A stretch of 38,893 nt of DNA from an uncultured Eubacterium sp. (GTDB lineage: Bacteria; Bacillota; Clostridia; Lachnospirales; Lachnospiraceae). Positions within the stretch are counted from its first letter, which is position 1, and the number at the start of each line of letters is the position of its first letter. The notes below the pieces were generated by a model. It ran no database searches. It saw only the letters and a program-made list of their open reading frames with translations, and was not told the origin of the DNA. This document shows positions 13,443 to 37,797 of this stretch, one piece after another. The translations under genes and the position numbers were made by a program. Location of the stretch: assembly GCA_900548465.1 (NCBI GenBank), contig URKY01000022.1, positions 1 through 38,893 on the forward strand, in the 5' to 3' direction.

Positions 13443-13635
13443 AAATTGAAAAGGTAAAGACTATATGGAAAACACGTTGTATTTCTAACTTTGCTGCGGC
13501 GTCTATTAGCAACTGCTTTCGCAAACTCGCCCTCATTGAGGGCTCAAACAGTGCTTCGCATTTGCAACTAGCCTTGCAAAGTATACGAAATACTGCCTAT
13601 TGTTTTCTCATATTAGTCTTTACCTTTTCAATTTT
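13442..13635. mobile_element. 194-bp palindromic MITE-like element
   Basis: The ends are perfect 22-bp inverted repeats: AAAATTGAAAAGGTAAAGAC-TA at 13442-13463 and its complement at 13614-13635. Similarity between the arms continues imperfectly inwards (ATATG..GAAAACA..TATTTC). The centre carries a palindrome GCCCTCATTGAGGGC at 13529-13543, and intermediate segments also pair. No transposase or real gene is inside. It sits exactly between convergent apbE and spoVAF, and each stop codon ends on the first base of an inverted repeat. It may work as a shared bidirectional terminator. No clear target duplication was seen. Confidence 0.65.
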
Positions 13636-15044
13636 TATTTTCTTTTATTTATTGATACTCTAAAAAATCTTAACATAAATTTTTTAAAATCGAATGGATA
13701 TAACGGGTATATATAACTTGTCTGAGCAATTGTTTTATTTAATACAATTGTTAGTACAGTTACACCTATTCCGATTATGAAGCCCCATATGTTAAATAAT
13801 TGGACTAATACTAAGGATATTAGCCTTAAAAATTTTATGGAGTATGCCAGTTCGTAGTTCTCGTGAGTAAAGTTTGCAATGGCAACTACTGCCATATATA
13901 ACATTGTCTGTTCTGCAAACCATCCTGTGTTTACGGCAAATTCACCAATTATTATTGCTGCAATCAAACTCAAAGGTGTATTTAATGTGCTGGGGGTGTT
14001 AATTGCTGCAATCTTTAAACCATCTATTGCCAGCTCTAATATTAAAAGTTGCCAGAATATGGGAACGTATTGCGGTTCTATCTTCGTAAACATTAACCAG
14101 TCAGGAAGCATATCAGGATTATTGGCATAAAGCAAAAATAATGGTGTTAACAAAAGGGACAAGACTGTTATGGCTGCTCTTGCAAGTCTTAAATATGTTC
14201 CTGTAATAGGGGGAAAATAATAATCATCTGCTTCTTCAATAACATCGAAGATTGTTGTTGGCAAAAGCATTGCTGCCGGTGAATTATCTACCAGAATACA
14301 TATCTGTCCTTCTAAAATTTCAGCAGCTACAGTATCCGGTCTTTCTGTATATCTGAATTTAGGAAACGGATTAAACCAATGCCCTTTGTGTAGACATTCC
14401 GAAAGGCTCTCCTGATTCATAGGCAATGCGTCTGTTTTTATGTTATTTAGCTGTTTTTTAATACGTGATAAGAGTTTTTTATCAACTCTGTCATCCATAT
14501 AGCAAATGGCAATATCAGTTCTGGAACTCGTACCTGCACGCAATATTTCACATTTGTATTCCGGACTTCTAATTCTTCTTCTAATGAGAGCCGTATTACA
14601 CACAATTGTTTCAACAAATCCATCTCTTGAACCACGTAAAACTTTATATTTTTCAGGCTCCTGCACGTTTCTGGCAGGATATTCTCTTGCATCAATTAAA
14701 AAGGCCTTATCATAACCTTCTATAACAAGACATAAAACACCGGACAATGTCATTGTTATAACATCATATTCCTGATCAAACATTTCTACTTCAAGTATGG
14801 GAATAAGTGCATCTGAAAAATCTACGGGGTTATCAGGCATTTCTTCTTCTTTAATTCCGGCAAAGAAATGTTGGACTTTTTCCAGCAGATCTTCATTACA
14901 AAAGCCATTAATAAAATACATACTCGCTTTTCTTCCACCAATTGTTGTATTTTTCTTTAACATATCAAAACTGTTTGGTATATCTAAAATTTCATCTAAT
15001 TTTTCTGTATTGCTTTTTAAATCTTTACTAATAAATTTTTCCAT
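13635..15044 (-). CDS. spoVAF: GerA-family spore germination protein, SpoVAF-like
   Basis: This 469-residue protein has a soluble N-terminal half and about four to five membrane helices from residue ~280, the GerA-family layout. Segments resembling SpoVAF more than GerAA include KASMYFINGFCNEDLL, REYPARNVQEPEKYKVLRGS, RDGFVETIVCNTALIRRRIR, NPFPKFRYTERPDT and IFDVIEEADDYYFPPITGTY. SpoVAF sits in the spore inner membrane, and in Bacillus subtilis it is made in the forespore under sigma-G and helps amplify germination. Here it stands alone behind rnfB rather than after spoVAD/E. GTGAGG 8 bases before the ATG is its only ribosome site, and it is part of a terminator stem. Its stop touches the MITE-like element. 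Confidence 0.88.
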   Translation of the reverse strand: MEKFISKDLKSNTEKLDEILDIPNSFDMLKKNTTIGGRKASMYFINGFCNEDLLEKVQHFFAGIKEEEMPDNPVDFSDALIPILEVEMFDQEYDVITMTLSGVLCLVIEGYDKAFLIDAREYPARNVQEPEKYKVLRGSRDGFVETIVCNTALIRRRIRSPEYKCEILRAGTSSRTDIAICYMDDRVDKKLLSRIKKQLNNIKTDALPMNQESLSECLHKGHWFNPFPKFRYTERPDTVAAEILEGQICILVDNSPAAMLLPTTIFDVIEEADDYYFPPITGTYLRLARAAITVLSLLLTPLFLLYANNPDMLPDWLMFTKIEPQYVPIFWQLLILELAIDGLKIAAINTPSTLNTPLSLIAAIIIGEFAVNTGWFAEQTMLYMAVVAIANFTHENYELAYSIKFLRLISLVLVQLFNIWGFIIGIGVTVLTIVLNKTIAQTSYIYPLYPFDFKKFMLRFFRVSINKRK

Positions 15045-15080
15045 AAAAAAACCTCACACTATATTCTAGTGTGAGGTTTT
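15045..15080 (-). terminator. terminator of the rnf operon, overlapping the spoVAF ribosome site
   Basis: On the minus strand AACCTCACACTA (15078-15067), loop GAATA and TAGTGTGAGGTT (15061-15050) form a perfect 12-bp stem followed by seven U residues. It follows the rnfB stop by about 22 bases. The 3' arm contains the GTGAGG Shine-Dalgarno of the spoVAF-like gene, whose ATG comes directly after the U-run. Confidence 0.9.
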
Positions 15081-24840: not shown

Positions 24841-24869
24841 ACTTTTATATAAACCAGCTTTGCCCAAAG

Positions 24870-24903
24870 AAAGAGACCCACAATTAAGTGAGTCTCTTTT
24901 TTT
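24870..24903 (+). terminator. terminator between the RNase H-like gene and SASP gene
   Basis: AAAGAGACCCAC (24870-24881) and GTGAGTCTCTTT (24888-24899) form a 12-base stem with one mismatch around AATTAA, followed by a T-run on the plus strand. On the minus strand the mismatch becomes a G-U pair, so it may also end the convergent SASP transcript. Confidence 0.8.
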
Positions 24904-24921
24904 GATTTTTGCAATCAAATG

Positions 24922-25122
24922 TTATTTACCACTCATCTGTCTTTCCTGAGCTTCAATCATCTTTTTAACCATCTGTCCACCAACAGATCCAGCCTGAGCT
25001 GATGTTAAGTTACCATTGTAACCATCTGTAAGCTGAACACCTACTTCTGATGCACATTCCATTTTAAATCTGTTCATAGCACTCTTAGCTTCAGGAACAT
25101 TAACTTTGTTTGTGTTGCTCAT
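24922..25122 (-). CDS. alpha/beta-type small acid-soluble spore protein (SASP)
   Basis: This 66-residue DNA-binding protein coats the chromosome in dormant spores and protects it from UV and hydrolysis. Family signatures are present: EAKSAMNRFKMECASEVGV with the GPR protease cleavage region, and YNGNLTSAQAGSVGGQMVKKMI. The start ATG at 25122 has GGAGG 7 bases upstream; a longer frame to 25176 has no ribosome site and does not match the family. Its candidate sigma-G promoter and an inverted repeat covering the ribosome site are described separately. Upstream on the same strand is murF, with no ordinary terminator between. Confidence 0.96.
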   Translation of the reverse strand: MSNTNKVNVPEAKSAMNRFKMECASEVGVQLTDGYNGNLTSAQAGSVGGQMVKKMIEAQERQMSGK

Positions 25123-25129
25123 AACAATA

Positions 25130-25216
25130 CCTCCATTTTTCATAAAAGAAAATTTTTGCTTGTAACGAAGCTTCAATTGAATTTTTGTTACAGTAGTATT
25201 ATGTGAAAAATGGAGG
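25130..25216. repeat. 13-bp inverted repeat covering the SASP ribosome site and promoter spacer
   Basis: CCTCCATTTTTCA (25130-25142) and TGAAAAATGGAGG (25204-25216) are perfect complements 61 bases apart. A nested 6-bp pair, GTAACG-type (TGTAAC/GTTACA on the minus strand), lies between them. On the minus strand the distal arm contributes CCTCC and the proximal arm GGAGG, the SASP Shine-Dalgarno. There is no U-run, so it is not a terminator. Confidence 0.75.
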
Positions 25217-25224
25217 ATTATAAA
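25194..25224 (-). promoter_or_regulatory. candidate sigma-G promoter of the SASP gene
   Basis: On the minus strand TTTATA (25224-25219) and AATACTA (25200-25194) are 18 bases apart, close to the forespore consensus gHATR-N17/18-CATHHTA with one mismatch in each box. The anti-Shine-Dalgarno arm (25204-25216) lies wholly in the spacer, so it is absent from a transcript started near 25187. Confidence 0.5.
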
Positions 25225-25261
25225 CTGGTAAGTTGTTGTTTTTCTGACAAAATTTGAGAAT

Positions 25262-26629
25262 TTATTTTCTTAATAATTCTACAATTTCTTTAAACTTCAT
25301 ACTGTTAGATGCTTTCACTAAAACAGTGTCATCTTTTTTTATAAGATTTTTAATTTCTTTCTCAAAATCTTCTTTATTTTCATAATACAAAACTTCATTG
25401 TCAGAAGTTTTTGCTTTATTTGCAATGTTTTTCGCAAGACTTCCAATGCAAATTACAAGATCAATGCCTAAAACAGCTGCTTTCTCACCTACTTCTTCGT
25501 GAAGCTGTACTTCTTTAGCTCCAAGCTCAAACATATTACCTAATATTGCGACTTTTCTTCCGGTAGCATTTGAAAGTACTTCAAGACTTGCTTTCATTGA
25601 CATTGGATTGGCATTATAGCAGTCATCTATTACTGTTATGCCATTATTTACAAAAATATTGTTTCTACCGCTAATTGCTTTAAGTTTTCTTATTCCACTA
25701 TCAATTTCTTCCAAAGTCATTCCAAAGTGAACACCAATACATGTTGCTGCCAAGGCATTATAAAGCATATGATATCCCGGAATTGGAATTAATGTATCAA
25801 AACATCTTCCGTCATAATTTATTGTAGCCTCAGTACCTAAAACGCCAATCTGTTTATATGTTTTAACTGTAACTTTCTGATCAGTATCAATACCGAAGAA
25901 TACAGGCTTATTACCATTAACTTCCTTCACATTTATCAACTTATCATCATCACCATTTAAAACAATAAAGCAATCTTTCTTCGCGTAATCAAACATTTCT
26001 GTTTTTGCCTTAAACACGCCATCCCTATCACCTAAATTTTCTAAATGGCAGGTGCCGATATTTGTTATTACACAAACATCAGGCTTTGAAACCTTCGCCA
26101 GTCTGTGCATTTCTTCAAAATCACTGATACCCATTTCAATAACTGCAATATCATGATTGTCTCTTATTTTCAAAATAGTAAGTGGCATGCCTATTTCATT
26201 ATTATAGTTACCTTCTGTTTTTAACACATCAAATTTTTCGCTTAAAACAGATGCAATTATTTCTTTTGTACTTGTTTTTCCAACACTGCCGGTAATGCCA
26301 ATAATCTTGCAATCAAGCTGTTCCCTGTAAAATTCTGCAATGTCTTTTAATGCCTGCGGAACTGACTTAACCTTTATGTATGGTCCGGCAGGGTTCTCTA
26401 AATCCTTTTCTGATAATGTAGCTAATGCTCCTTTTTCAAAAACCTGCGGAATAAAATCATGTCCGTCAACCCTTGCACCTACAAATGGGAGATATAAATA
26501 TCCTTTTTCAATAAGACGGCTGTCTTTTTCCACCCCCGTAATTTCTTCATTAAGTATAGAATCGTCTCCAACATAATTTCCGTTACAGGCTTCTGTTATA
26601 TTTTTAAGTGTCATATTTTTCAACTTCAT
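25262..26629 (-). CDS. murF: UDP-N-acetylmuramoyl-tripeptide--D-alanyl-D-alanine ligase (MurF)
   Basis: This 455-residue cytosolic ligase adds D-Ala-D-Ala to the UDP-MurNAc-tripeptide, completing the peptidoglycan stem. The N-terminal substrate domain includes SRLIEKGYLYLPFVGARVDG. The P-loop is GITGSVGKTSTKE at about residue 115. The central domain has AVIEMGISDFEEMHRLA and ITNIGTCHLENLG, and the C-terminal domain starts near VIDDCYNANPMSMKASL. Length is normal. It follows ddl by 15 bases, so the two consecutive steps of the pathway are in one operon. Confidence 0.97.
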   Translation of the reverse strand: MKLKNMTLKNITEACNGNYVGDDSILNEEITGVEKDSRLIEKGYLYLPFVGARVDGHDFIPQVFEKGALATLSEKDLENPAGPYIKVKSVPQALKDIAEFYREQLDCKIIGITGSVGKTSTKEIIASVLSEKFDVLKTEGNYNNEIGMPLTILKIRDNHDIAVIEMGISDFEEMHRLAKVSKPDVCVITNIGTCHLENLGDRDGVFKAKTEMFDYAKKDCFIVLNGDDDKLINVKEVNGNKPVFFGIDTDQKVTVKTYKQIGVLGTEATINYDGRCFDTLIPIPGYHMLYNALAATCIGVHFGMTLEEIDSGIRKLKAISGRNNIFVNNGITVIDDCYNANPMSMKASLEVLSNATGRKVAILGNMFELGAKEVQLHEEVGEKAAVLGIDLVICIGSLAKNIANKAKTSDNEVLYYENKEDFEKEIKNLIKKDDTVLVKASNSMKFKEIVELLRK

Positions 26630-26644
26630 ATGCTATCACTCCAT

Positions 26645-27658
26645 TTATTTCATAGATAATTTTACAAGGTTATCACACAGTGTAGGATAATCAATTCCTA
26701 TTGCCCTTGCCTCATCAGGAATAAGACTTGTTTTGGTCATTCCCGGTAATGTATTTACCTCGAGGCAGTACATATTGTTGTCTTTATCCATCATGACATC
26801 TGCTCTTGCATAAGGTTCACATCCGATTGCTGCACATGCATCTTCAGCAACTTTCTGCATTTTTTTAGTTAAATCTTCGTCTAAATTGGCAGGACATACA
26901 TGATCTGTTGCTCCCGGTGCATATTTATTCCTGTAATCATACCAGCCTGTTTTTGGAATAATTTCAACAACAGGTAATGCCTTATTGTCTATTACTCCAA
27001 TTGAAAATTCTCTTCCTTCAATATAATCTTCCACAAGGACTGTGTCATCAAGGGCAAAACACTCTTTAAGTGCTTCATCATATTCTGATTCATCCTTTAC
27101 TAAAACCACACCAACACTGGAACCGCCATTACATGCTTTTACAACAACAGGAATCTCCATTCCTATAGTCTTCAAATCAGAAGGTTCACCTTTCTTAATC
27201 CATGCACTTTTTGCTGTAGGAACATTTTTTGAAAGGAAAATCTGTTTTGTAACAGCCTTATCCATTCCAATCGCACTGGCAAGTGGTCCGGAACCTGTGT
27301 ATTTAATTCCAAATAAATCAAGAGTTGCCTGACATTTACCGTCTTCACCATTTTTTCCGTGAAGCGCCATAAACACAATATCTGCCTTAGAACAGATTTC
27401 TATAACATTTTTTCCAAAGAATTCTCTTCTGTTTTCATCCACATGTTTTGAAAGTTCCTGTATCTTTTTCTTTTCTTCTTCTACTCTATACTCTCTATCT
27501 GATTTTTCAAAAATCTCTATGTCATCAAGACCAAAATATACATCAATAAGAATAGCATTGTGTCCTTTGCTTCTAAGTGCTTCACACACATTAGATCCGG
27601 AATCAATGGATACTTCTCTCTCTGTACTATTTCCGCCACATAAAACTACAATATTCAT
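26645..27658 (-). CDS. ddl: D-alanine--D-alanine ligase
   Basis: This 337-residue ATP-grasp enzyme joins two D-alanines. It begins MNIVVLCGGNSTEREVSIDSG, the typical Ddl N-terminus. ATP-grasp landmarks are FMALHGKNGEDGKCQATLDL, VVVKACNGGSSVGVVLVKDE, EDYIEGREFSIGVID and, for Mg2+ and product binding, YCLEVNTLPGMTKTSLIP. An insertion of about 25 charged residues follows the first domain strand (EEEKKKIQELSKHVDENRRE). The ATG at 27658 is chosen because AAGGAG lies 10 bases upstream and the protein start matches the family; an in-frame start 33 bases earlier is less likely. murF follows. Confidence 0.96.
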   Translation of the reverse strand: MNIVVLCGGNSTEREVSIDSGSNVCEALRSKGHNAILIDVYFGLDDIEIFEKSDREYRVEEEKKKIQELSKHVDENRREFFGKNVIEICSKADIVFMALHGKNGEDGKCQATLDLFGIKYTGSGPLASAIGMDKAVTKQIFLSKNVPTAKSAWIKKGEPSDLKTIGMEIPVVVKACNGGSSVGVVLVKDESEYDEALKECFALDDTVLVEDYIEGREFSIGVIDNKALPVVEIIPKTGWYDYRNKYAPGATDHVCPANLDEDLTKKMQKVAEDACAAIGCEPYARADVMMDKDNNMYCLEVNTLPGMTKTSLIPDEARAIGIDYPTLCDNLVKLSMK

Positions 27659-27731
27659 ATTATTTACGCTCCTTTTGAAGTATTTCAACACAAATAATTA
27701 TATAGCATATTATATTTAATACAATACAAAA

Positions 27732-37746: not shown

Positions 37747-37797
37747 AAAATAACAAGCCCTCTGTCTATCACTACCTGACAGAGGGCTTGTTATTTT
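37747..37797. terminator. strong bidirectional terminator
   Basis: The arms at 37747-37766 and 37778-37797 are perfect complements over 20 bases (AAAATAACAAGCC...; key core AAGCCCTCTGTC / GACAGAGGGCTT) around an 11-base loop, with A/T tails on both sides. It ends the amphipathic-repeat gene and may also stop transcripts from the minus strand. Confidence 0.92.

Follow-up and report, generated by a model that had tools for sequence, protein, structure and literature searches.

The locus described here raises the question of how growing cells might avoid making an α/β-type SASP, a protein that would coat their DNA, when its gene stands behind the cell-wall genes ddl and murF. In the window (the whole stretch of 38,893 nucleotides that was analysed, contig URKY01000022.1 of an uncultured Eubacterium sp.) the SASP coding sequence occupies 24922..25122 on the minus strand, which also carries all other features of the locus given below. 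Its 66-aa product is identified as an α/β SASP by a match to PF00269 far above the family cut-off (E 2.8e-29; 101.3 bits vs 22). Upstream, on the same strand and separated from it by 139 nt, lies murF (25262..26629), the presumed source of read-through, which is itself preceded by ddl (26645..27691). The initial annotation had placed no terminator between murF and the SASP gene, and this agrees with our results: a scan of low sensitivity returned 0 terminator-like sites in 24850-25400, and no hairpin with a U-tract is seen by eye between the two genes. The scan result is weak, because the same scan overlooked a terminator-shaped hairpin 3' of the SASP gene (about 24871-24900, by eye).

The central feature is a perfect inverted repeat of 13 bp joining the promoter spacer to the SASP ribosome site, which had been pointed out in the initial annotation and is confirmed by complementarity and by shuffle counts. 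The proximal arm, UGAAAAAUGGAGG (25130..25142), includes the Shine-Dalgarno GGAGG (25130..25134), and the distal arm, CCUCCAUUUUUCA, lies at 25204..25216; the two are exact reverse complements over 13 bp and remain 89% complementary over 18 bp. Such a repeat was present in only 23 of 20000 local shuffles of the region 25110-25262, and the entire window holds four perfect inverted repeats of at least 13 bp with a loop of 3-100, whereas 30 block shuffles contain 0.13 on average. The duplex has a predicted energy of -25.8 kcal/mol (shuffle mean -13.1) and was equalled in 0/400 shuffles and by 0/193 swapped intergenic regions. Elsewhere in the window, near its right end, a 20-bp perfect inverted repeat (37747-37797) is probably an ordinary terminator.

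The distal arm is situated in the -35/-10 spacer of a candidate promoter, GTTTA-N17-CATAATA (25197..25225), which we take to be a σG promoter from its likeness to the consensus. The window shares the -10 CATAATA with 13/13 relatives; the -35 is variable among them, with a spacing of 17 where counted by eye. By the usual rule of 6-7 nt past the -10, transcription would start at 25187..25190, and a forespore message beginning near 25187 would, as had been proposed, lack the distal arm, which lies 5' of this start. Around and just past the predicted start (25161..25192) the leader can form a hairpin, UGUAAC...GUUACA, coinciding with the presumptive 5' end of the SASP message. By eye the relatives show similar pairs (L001-L011, L021, L022), with U-A replacing C-G in L021 and L022, and it is possibly an mRNA-stabilising 5' hairpin. 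An STTWCCAG-like block, located 5' of the -35 and overlapping it (25225-25232), also seems by eye to be kept in the relatives and is a possible activator site or extended promoter element.

Predicted folding separates the two kinds of transcript. In the minimum-energy fold of the read-through RNA the helix, which encloses a 61-nt loop, is lengthened by 9 pairs between an extension of the distal arm that overlaps the -35 (GUUUAUAAU, 25217..25225) and the region of the SASP start codon (25117..25125), giving 22 pairs in total with a 4-nt bulge. The energy of this fold is -28.8 kcal/mol, a value reached by 3/200 shuffles, while the RNA from 25187 folds with -12.8 kcal/mol, as do 150/200 shuffles. 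Opening the Shine-Dalgarno is predicted to cost 14.5 kcal/mol in the read-through RNA (0/300 shuffles as high) vs 2.0 kcal/mol in the short RNA that begins at the predicted start, where a weak pairing of the Shine-Dalgarno with the leader remains in the minimum-energy fold. The corresponding values are 14.3 vs 3.3 kcal/mol in the relative L101 and 11.8 vs 2.4 kcal/mol in L102. The earlier proposal that the arms pair in read-through mRNA is supported by the computed fold and opening energy, which predict strong pairing of the ribosome site in that RNA only.

We consider it probable (roughly 70%) that the SASP promoter serves both as the start of the forespore message and as a mask over the ribosome site and AUG in read-through RNA, and that this arrangement recurs at spoVAF, spoVT, sigG and spoIVA. 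As DNA, the promoter would start the forespore message; as RNA, in transcripts reading through from ddl-murF, its -35/-10 region would fold onto the start codon and ribosome site of the SASP gene, so that no SASP would be translated from them in growing cells. As the forespore message would start 3' of the distal arm, its ribosome site would be open. The sigma factor, the start site, the read-through and the block to translation are here deduced from sequence. The same design would operate in this group at spoVAF, spoVT, sigG and spoIVA, which follow housekeeping operons or operons expressed earlier, and where a U-tract follows the stem (spoIVA and part of spoVAF) the hairpin would probably also terminate the upstream operon.

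The best full-length MurF matches to the window (76-77%) come from uncultured Lachnospiraceae and Eubacterium genomes. The comparison set comprises the nearest genomes, namely 12 of the genus of G003 and two outside it (G011 and G012), together with the window where the gene is present. The SASP gene occurs in 12/23 genomes of the G003 genus, and PF00269 gave a single match per genome in 13 of the 20 genomes searched. The 11 genomes of the genus that yielded no match measure 1.1-1.9 Mb and the 12 with a match 1.8-2.9 Mb; the former may represent a partial loss of sporulation or incomplete genomes. The CCTCC of the distal arm is found in the window only, and the arm letters vary among the relatives. 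Three (L094, L095, L098) have TTTTCATTTTTCA, which forms 13-14 pairs thanks to G-U; in L100-L102 the partner is TCCTTCATA, 5' of the -35, with 9-12 pairs; and in L090 and L093 the -10 itself (TCCATAATAA) serves as the arm, with 10 pairs. The helix has 7 pairs in L096 and L099, and in L097, L103 and L104 the best helix lies off the Shine-Dalgarno, with opening costs of 3.6, 2.3 and 3.6 kcal/mol, near the short-RNA values. Since distinct arms share one partner, they point to repeated evolution rather than to one inherited sequence. In L096 (G025) the SASP gene stands behind an RNase_H_2-like gene and faces murF; its promoter is conserved and its arm weak.

Across the window and nearest genomes the SASP duplex reaches a shuffle p<=0.05 in 6/14 cases, and in 6/14 also under the swap null; the opening energy of the Shine-Dalgarno exceeds that of shuffles in 7/14 leaders (p<=0.05). 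If only the 60 nt before the start are considered, 5/14 duplexes stay at p<=0.05, and among post-start leaders 0/14 pair at this level. We further compared the pairing of each promoter region with its own ribosome site to its pairing with the sites of relatives, using a permutation p. Own sites pair at -16.9 kcal/mol on average vs -13.2 for those of relatives (p 0.0002, 14 genomes), with the own site being the top partner in just 4/14. Omitting the window and taking one of the 13 relatives per clade, the median p is 0.0010 (7 clades, 36 choices; clades drawn by eye from genome similarity, no tree). This preference resides in the part before the start (p 0.0008) and not in the leader (p 0.63).

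To extend the comparison, sigG, gpr, sigF and spoVAC were picked by name, ahead of any inspection of their leaders, and spoVAF was taken over from the initial annotation. The spoVT gene was the sole strict σG-like promoter match in the G025 sample, where its own pairing has p 0.075, and a search for it in 14 genomes followed; spoIVA, a mother-cell gene that we take to be transcribed by σE, was first noticed in a scan of G003 and then tested in 30 genomes. At p<=0.05 against shuffles, pairing is found for sigG in 13/14 (swap null 11/14), for spoVT in 7/11 (swap null 4/11; e.g. L266, CCTCCACATACTAA vs TTAGTATGGGAGG), for spoVAF in 7/14 (swap null 7/14), and for spoIVA in 12/14 nearest and 13/16 further genomes. 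In sigG an arm of the AAAGAGCC type pairs with ATGGCTCTT in 11/14, and in 11/14 codons 1-4 lie within the best helix. There is no enrichment at gpr (2/14) or spoIIR (1/8); the gene upstream of spoIIR is on the opposite strand in 8/8, and the neighbour call for gpr is mixed. The anticipated excess of promoter/Shine-Dalgarno complementarity over shuffles is therefore present at sigG, spoVT and spoVAF and absent at gpr and spoIIR. At the same threshold sigF gave 1/12, spoVAC 0/12 and spoVAE 0/12; sigF, spoVAE and most spoVAC genes are operon-internal and for that reason do not test the rule. These and ytfJ, with a gap of 14-21 nt in the 8 loci with a correctly placed start, were set aside as support on this account, and PF06866 matched only gpr again. 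Some rows were left out: 3/14 spoVT loci owing to the start pattern, the spoVAF locus L114 of G025 with a misplaced start, in which no spoVAF-type hairpin was seen, and those without a start in sigF (2/14), spoVAC (1/13) and spoVAE (1/13).

The preference for the own ribosome site extends to several of these genes at the clade level, with median p 0.0002 for sigG, 0.0022 for spoVT, and 0.0008 for spoIVA (0.0002 in its 16 further genomes), compared with 0.17 for gpr. For spoVAF the median p is 0.063, or 0.12 with the window omitted, which denotes conservation without clear co-variation; its alignment, which includes one stray 2-nt row, likewise shows weak covariation, with a two-sided change in 1/7 pairs. 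Pairing at p<=0.05 by the part before the start is seen in 7/11 spoVT, 24/26 spoIVA and 7/11 spoVAF cases (4/30 spoIVA and 3/14 spoVAF sequences had no -10 match and were left out of this split), and by post-start leaders of testable length in 0/7 for spoIVA and 0/2 for spoVT. A CATA..TATG anchor is present in 21/30 spoIVA sequences; the spoIVA alignment covers 20/30 and was kept out of the statistics. The general rule suggested in the initial annotation hence stands in part: it gains from enrichment over controls at sigG, spoVT, spoVAF and spoIVA and from co-variation at SASP, sigG, spoVT and spoIVA, and it fails at gpr and spoIIR and for SASP in 29 other genomes (see below). Its restriction to forespore genes does not hold, as the presumably σE-dependent spoIVA has similar pairing.

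The strongest competing explanation, to which we give somewhat less than even odds, is that these hairpins act chiefly as intrinsic terminators for the operons upstream, the ribosome site being hidden only incidentally, through the overlap. It derives its force from spoVAF and spoIVA. The GerXA/SpoVAF-like gene of the window (13635..15044, minus strand; NF052514, E 9.9e-52, under the family cut-off) lies behind rnf genes, and its hairpin AAAACCUCACACUA/UAGUGUGAGGUUUU (15048..15080, minus strand) holds a candidate -10, CACACTA, in the 5' arm and the ribosome site in the 3' arm. Seven U follow the stem and are in turn followed by AUG, so that by sequence the rnf-spoVAF junction has the stem and U-tract of an intrinsic terminator. 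The architecture said to be shared by spoVAF and SASP is thus real as regards the pairing of the ribosome site with the promoter region, but the spoVAF hairpin is also shaped as an rnf terminator. A run of at least four U within the 9 nt before ATG occurs at spoIVA in 13/14 and 12/16 genomes and at spoVAF in 8/14, compared with about 6% of 608 background genes. Against this explanation, the same run is rare at SASP (2/14), spoVT (2/11) and sigG (3/14); the SASP stem of the window is followed by UAUUGUU, no U-tract, and closes the long loop noted above; and the best sigG helix mostly extends over the first codons. As compared with terminators that overlap the ribosome site of the next gene, spoIVA and the rnf-spoVAF junction of the window are alike, with stem and U-tract directly before AUG, whereas most SASP, spoVT and sigG leaders differ. 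From their sequences, spoIVA and part of spoVAF look like terminator and ribosome-site lock in one, with the promoter -10 in the stem, and SASP, spoVT and sigG would mostly be ribosome-site locks only. With a U-tract at its spoVAF hairpin and none at SASP, the window has one of each flavour.

We regard it as unlikely that the true start lies further upstream, such that the hairpin would be part of the spore message and regulate translation within the forespore. The start sites are inferred, and in B. subtilis a small hairpin at the sigG ribosome site is also present in the gene's own leader (PMC5942855). On the other hand, the -10 is consistently placed in 13/13 relatives, and the SASP leader after the predicted start shows no preference for its own ribosome site.

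About equally improbable is chance, that is, a match between AT-rich intergenic DNA and a purine-rich ribosome site, selected from a scan of 38.9 kb. It would fit the lack of conservation of the distal-arm letters and the results outside the nearest genomes: in 29 other genomes, mostly with Blautia or Lachnospiraceae labels, 4/30 SASP loci pair at p<=0.05 and 0/30 at p<=0.01 (second PF00269 matches left out, save one), and the own-site test gives p 0.019. Sorting the Blautia-type SASP loci by the orientation of the upstream gene, called crudely, gave no significant difference (p 0.058). Background genes also pair at times; among controls of G025, p<=0.05 against shuffles was reached by 11/139 codirectional genes with a gap (6/139 under the swap null), 4/90 without a gap and 4/54 divergent genes with a gap. 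What argues against chance is the rarity of such a repeat in local shuffles, the own-site preference that persists without the window and is confined to the part before the start, and the enrichment at four further sporulation genes. By the clade-level own-site test, evolution has maintained the SASP pairing in the relatives, but it is not retained in the 29 other genomes.

A scan of 1310 genes of G003 places these pairings in a wider context. With z<-2.5 in both tests it retained 25/608 codirectional genes with a gap, 6/494 with a gap<40 and 4/208 divergent ones; at z<-3.5 the figures are 12/608 with a gap, 0/494 without and 1/208 divergent. By reading and partly by Pfam, the 25 include spoVAF, sigG and genes for a CwlD-like amidase and for LysM-GH18, DUF1540 and DacF-like proteins, besides IS200, enolase, mutL, argF, agr-like and surface-protein genes; SASP and spoIVA narrowly miss this group (z -2.3). 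In the DUF1540 gene (C1:521171-521497) the arms CTCCACAATATTT/AAATATTGTGGAG pair perfectly over 13 bp, and a σG-like -10 lies within the arm, and at the enolase gene (C3:294734-295999), among the strongest matches of the scan, CCTC...GGGAGG pairs over the ribosome site. A 66-aa protein with no clear family (C1:554838-555038), whose gene has arms CTCCCACAAAATGT/ACATTTGTGGGAGG over the ribosome site, may be a new small spore protein. In transposase genes of the IS200 type the ribosome site is masked in transcripts that enter from outside, and one such gene (Y1_Tnp) is among the best matches in G003; there the arrangement protects a mobile element and does not serve development. A strict σG-like pattern, applied to the genes of G003, G025 and the window, had 13 matches, of which about 6 could be recognised as spore genes, too few for statistics.

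Least likely of all is that the palindromes are DNA operators of a regulator acting on sporulation promoters: the arms of spoVAF and spoIVA do overlap the -10 with high symmetry, but by eye the arms have no common sequence between genes, their spacing ranges from about 5 to more than 60 nt, and one of the two arms is formed by the ribosome site or start codon of the gene itself.

The promoter that doubles as a mask in read-through RNA has known counterparts. In B. subtilis, sigG (spoIIIG) lies behind spoIIGA-sigE, and PMC5942855, citing Masuda 1988 and Sun 1991, describes a large hairpin (20+ bp) proposed to block translation of the read-through RNA. According to the same text, it would act on read-through from PspoIIG and cannot form in the transcript from PsigG. 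In phage T4 the ribosome sites of e, soc and other late genes are hidden in early and middle read-through transcripts, such genes reside on long early transcripts, and the position of the late promoter of I-TevI prevents the structure from forming in late transcripts (PMC2988022). At the SASP gene, too, the partner of the ribosome site is upstream of the gene's own predicted start, as in the sigG and T4 late hairpins. The notion of an undescribed regulatory system has therefore to be given up, the principle being already known from B. subtilis sigG, T4 late genes and I-TevI, which work alike. The relatives' sigG has its own version of the B. subtilis hairpin, with the arms given above; B. subtilis offers a single gene, while several are involved here, among them a mother-cell gene and a SASP gene that follows a cell-wall operon, and the arms differ per gene; and the T4 cases belong to a phage time course with T4 late promoters, as opposed to cell differentiation with sporulation promoters. 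In the open-access literature we found no description of this design at SASP, spoVAF, spoVT or spoIVA, nor of its recurrence over several sporulation genes or of its repeated evolution.

A broader reading, on which we would place an even bet, is that, at sporulation genes of this group which follow housekeeping or earlier operons, promoters of three sigma regulons (E, F and G, as judged by consensus) have been built into the 5' arm of a hairpin whose 3' arm is the start codon or ribosome site of the same gene. Translation would then be limited to transcripts from sporulation promoters, outside transcripts would at some genes also be terminated, and the arms would arise anew in separate lineages; by virtue of the latter this would be a layer of control, evolved many times over, by which developmental genes escape the effects of read-through. 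Several sporulation genes in these bacteria directly follow growth genes, and termination of transcription is leaky. Were promoter and anti-Shine-Dalgarno to use the same bases, tight developmental silence would be obtained with no added sequence, and this would account for the gene-specific spacer sequences of some sporulation promoters.
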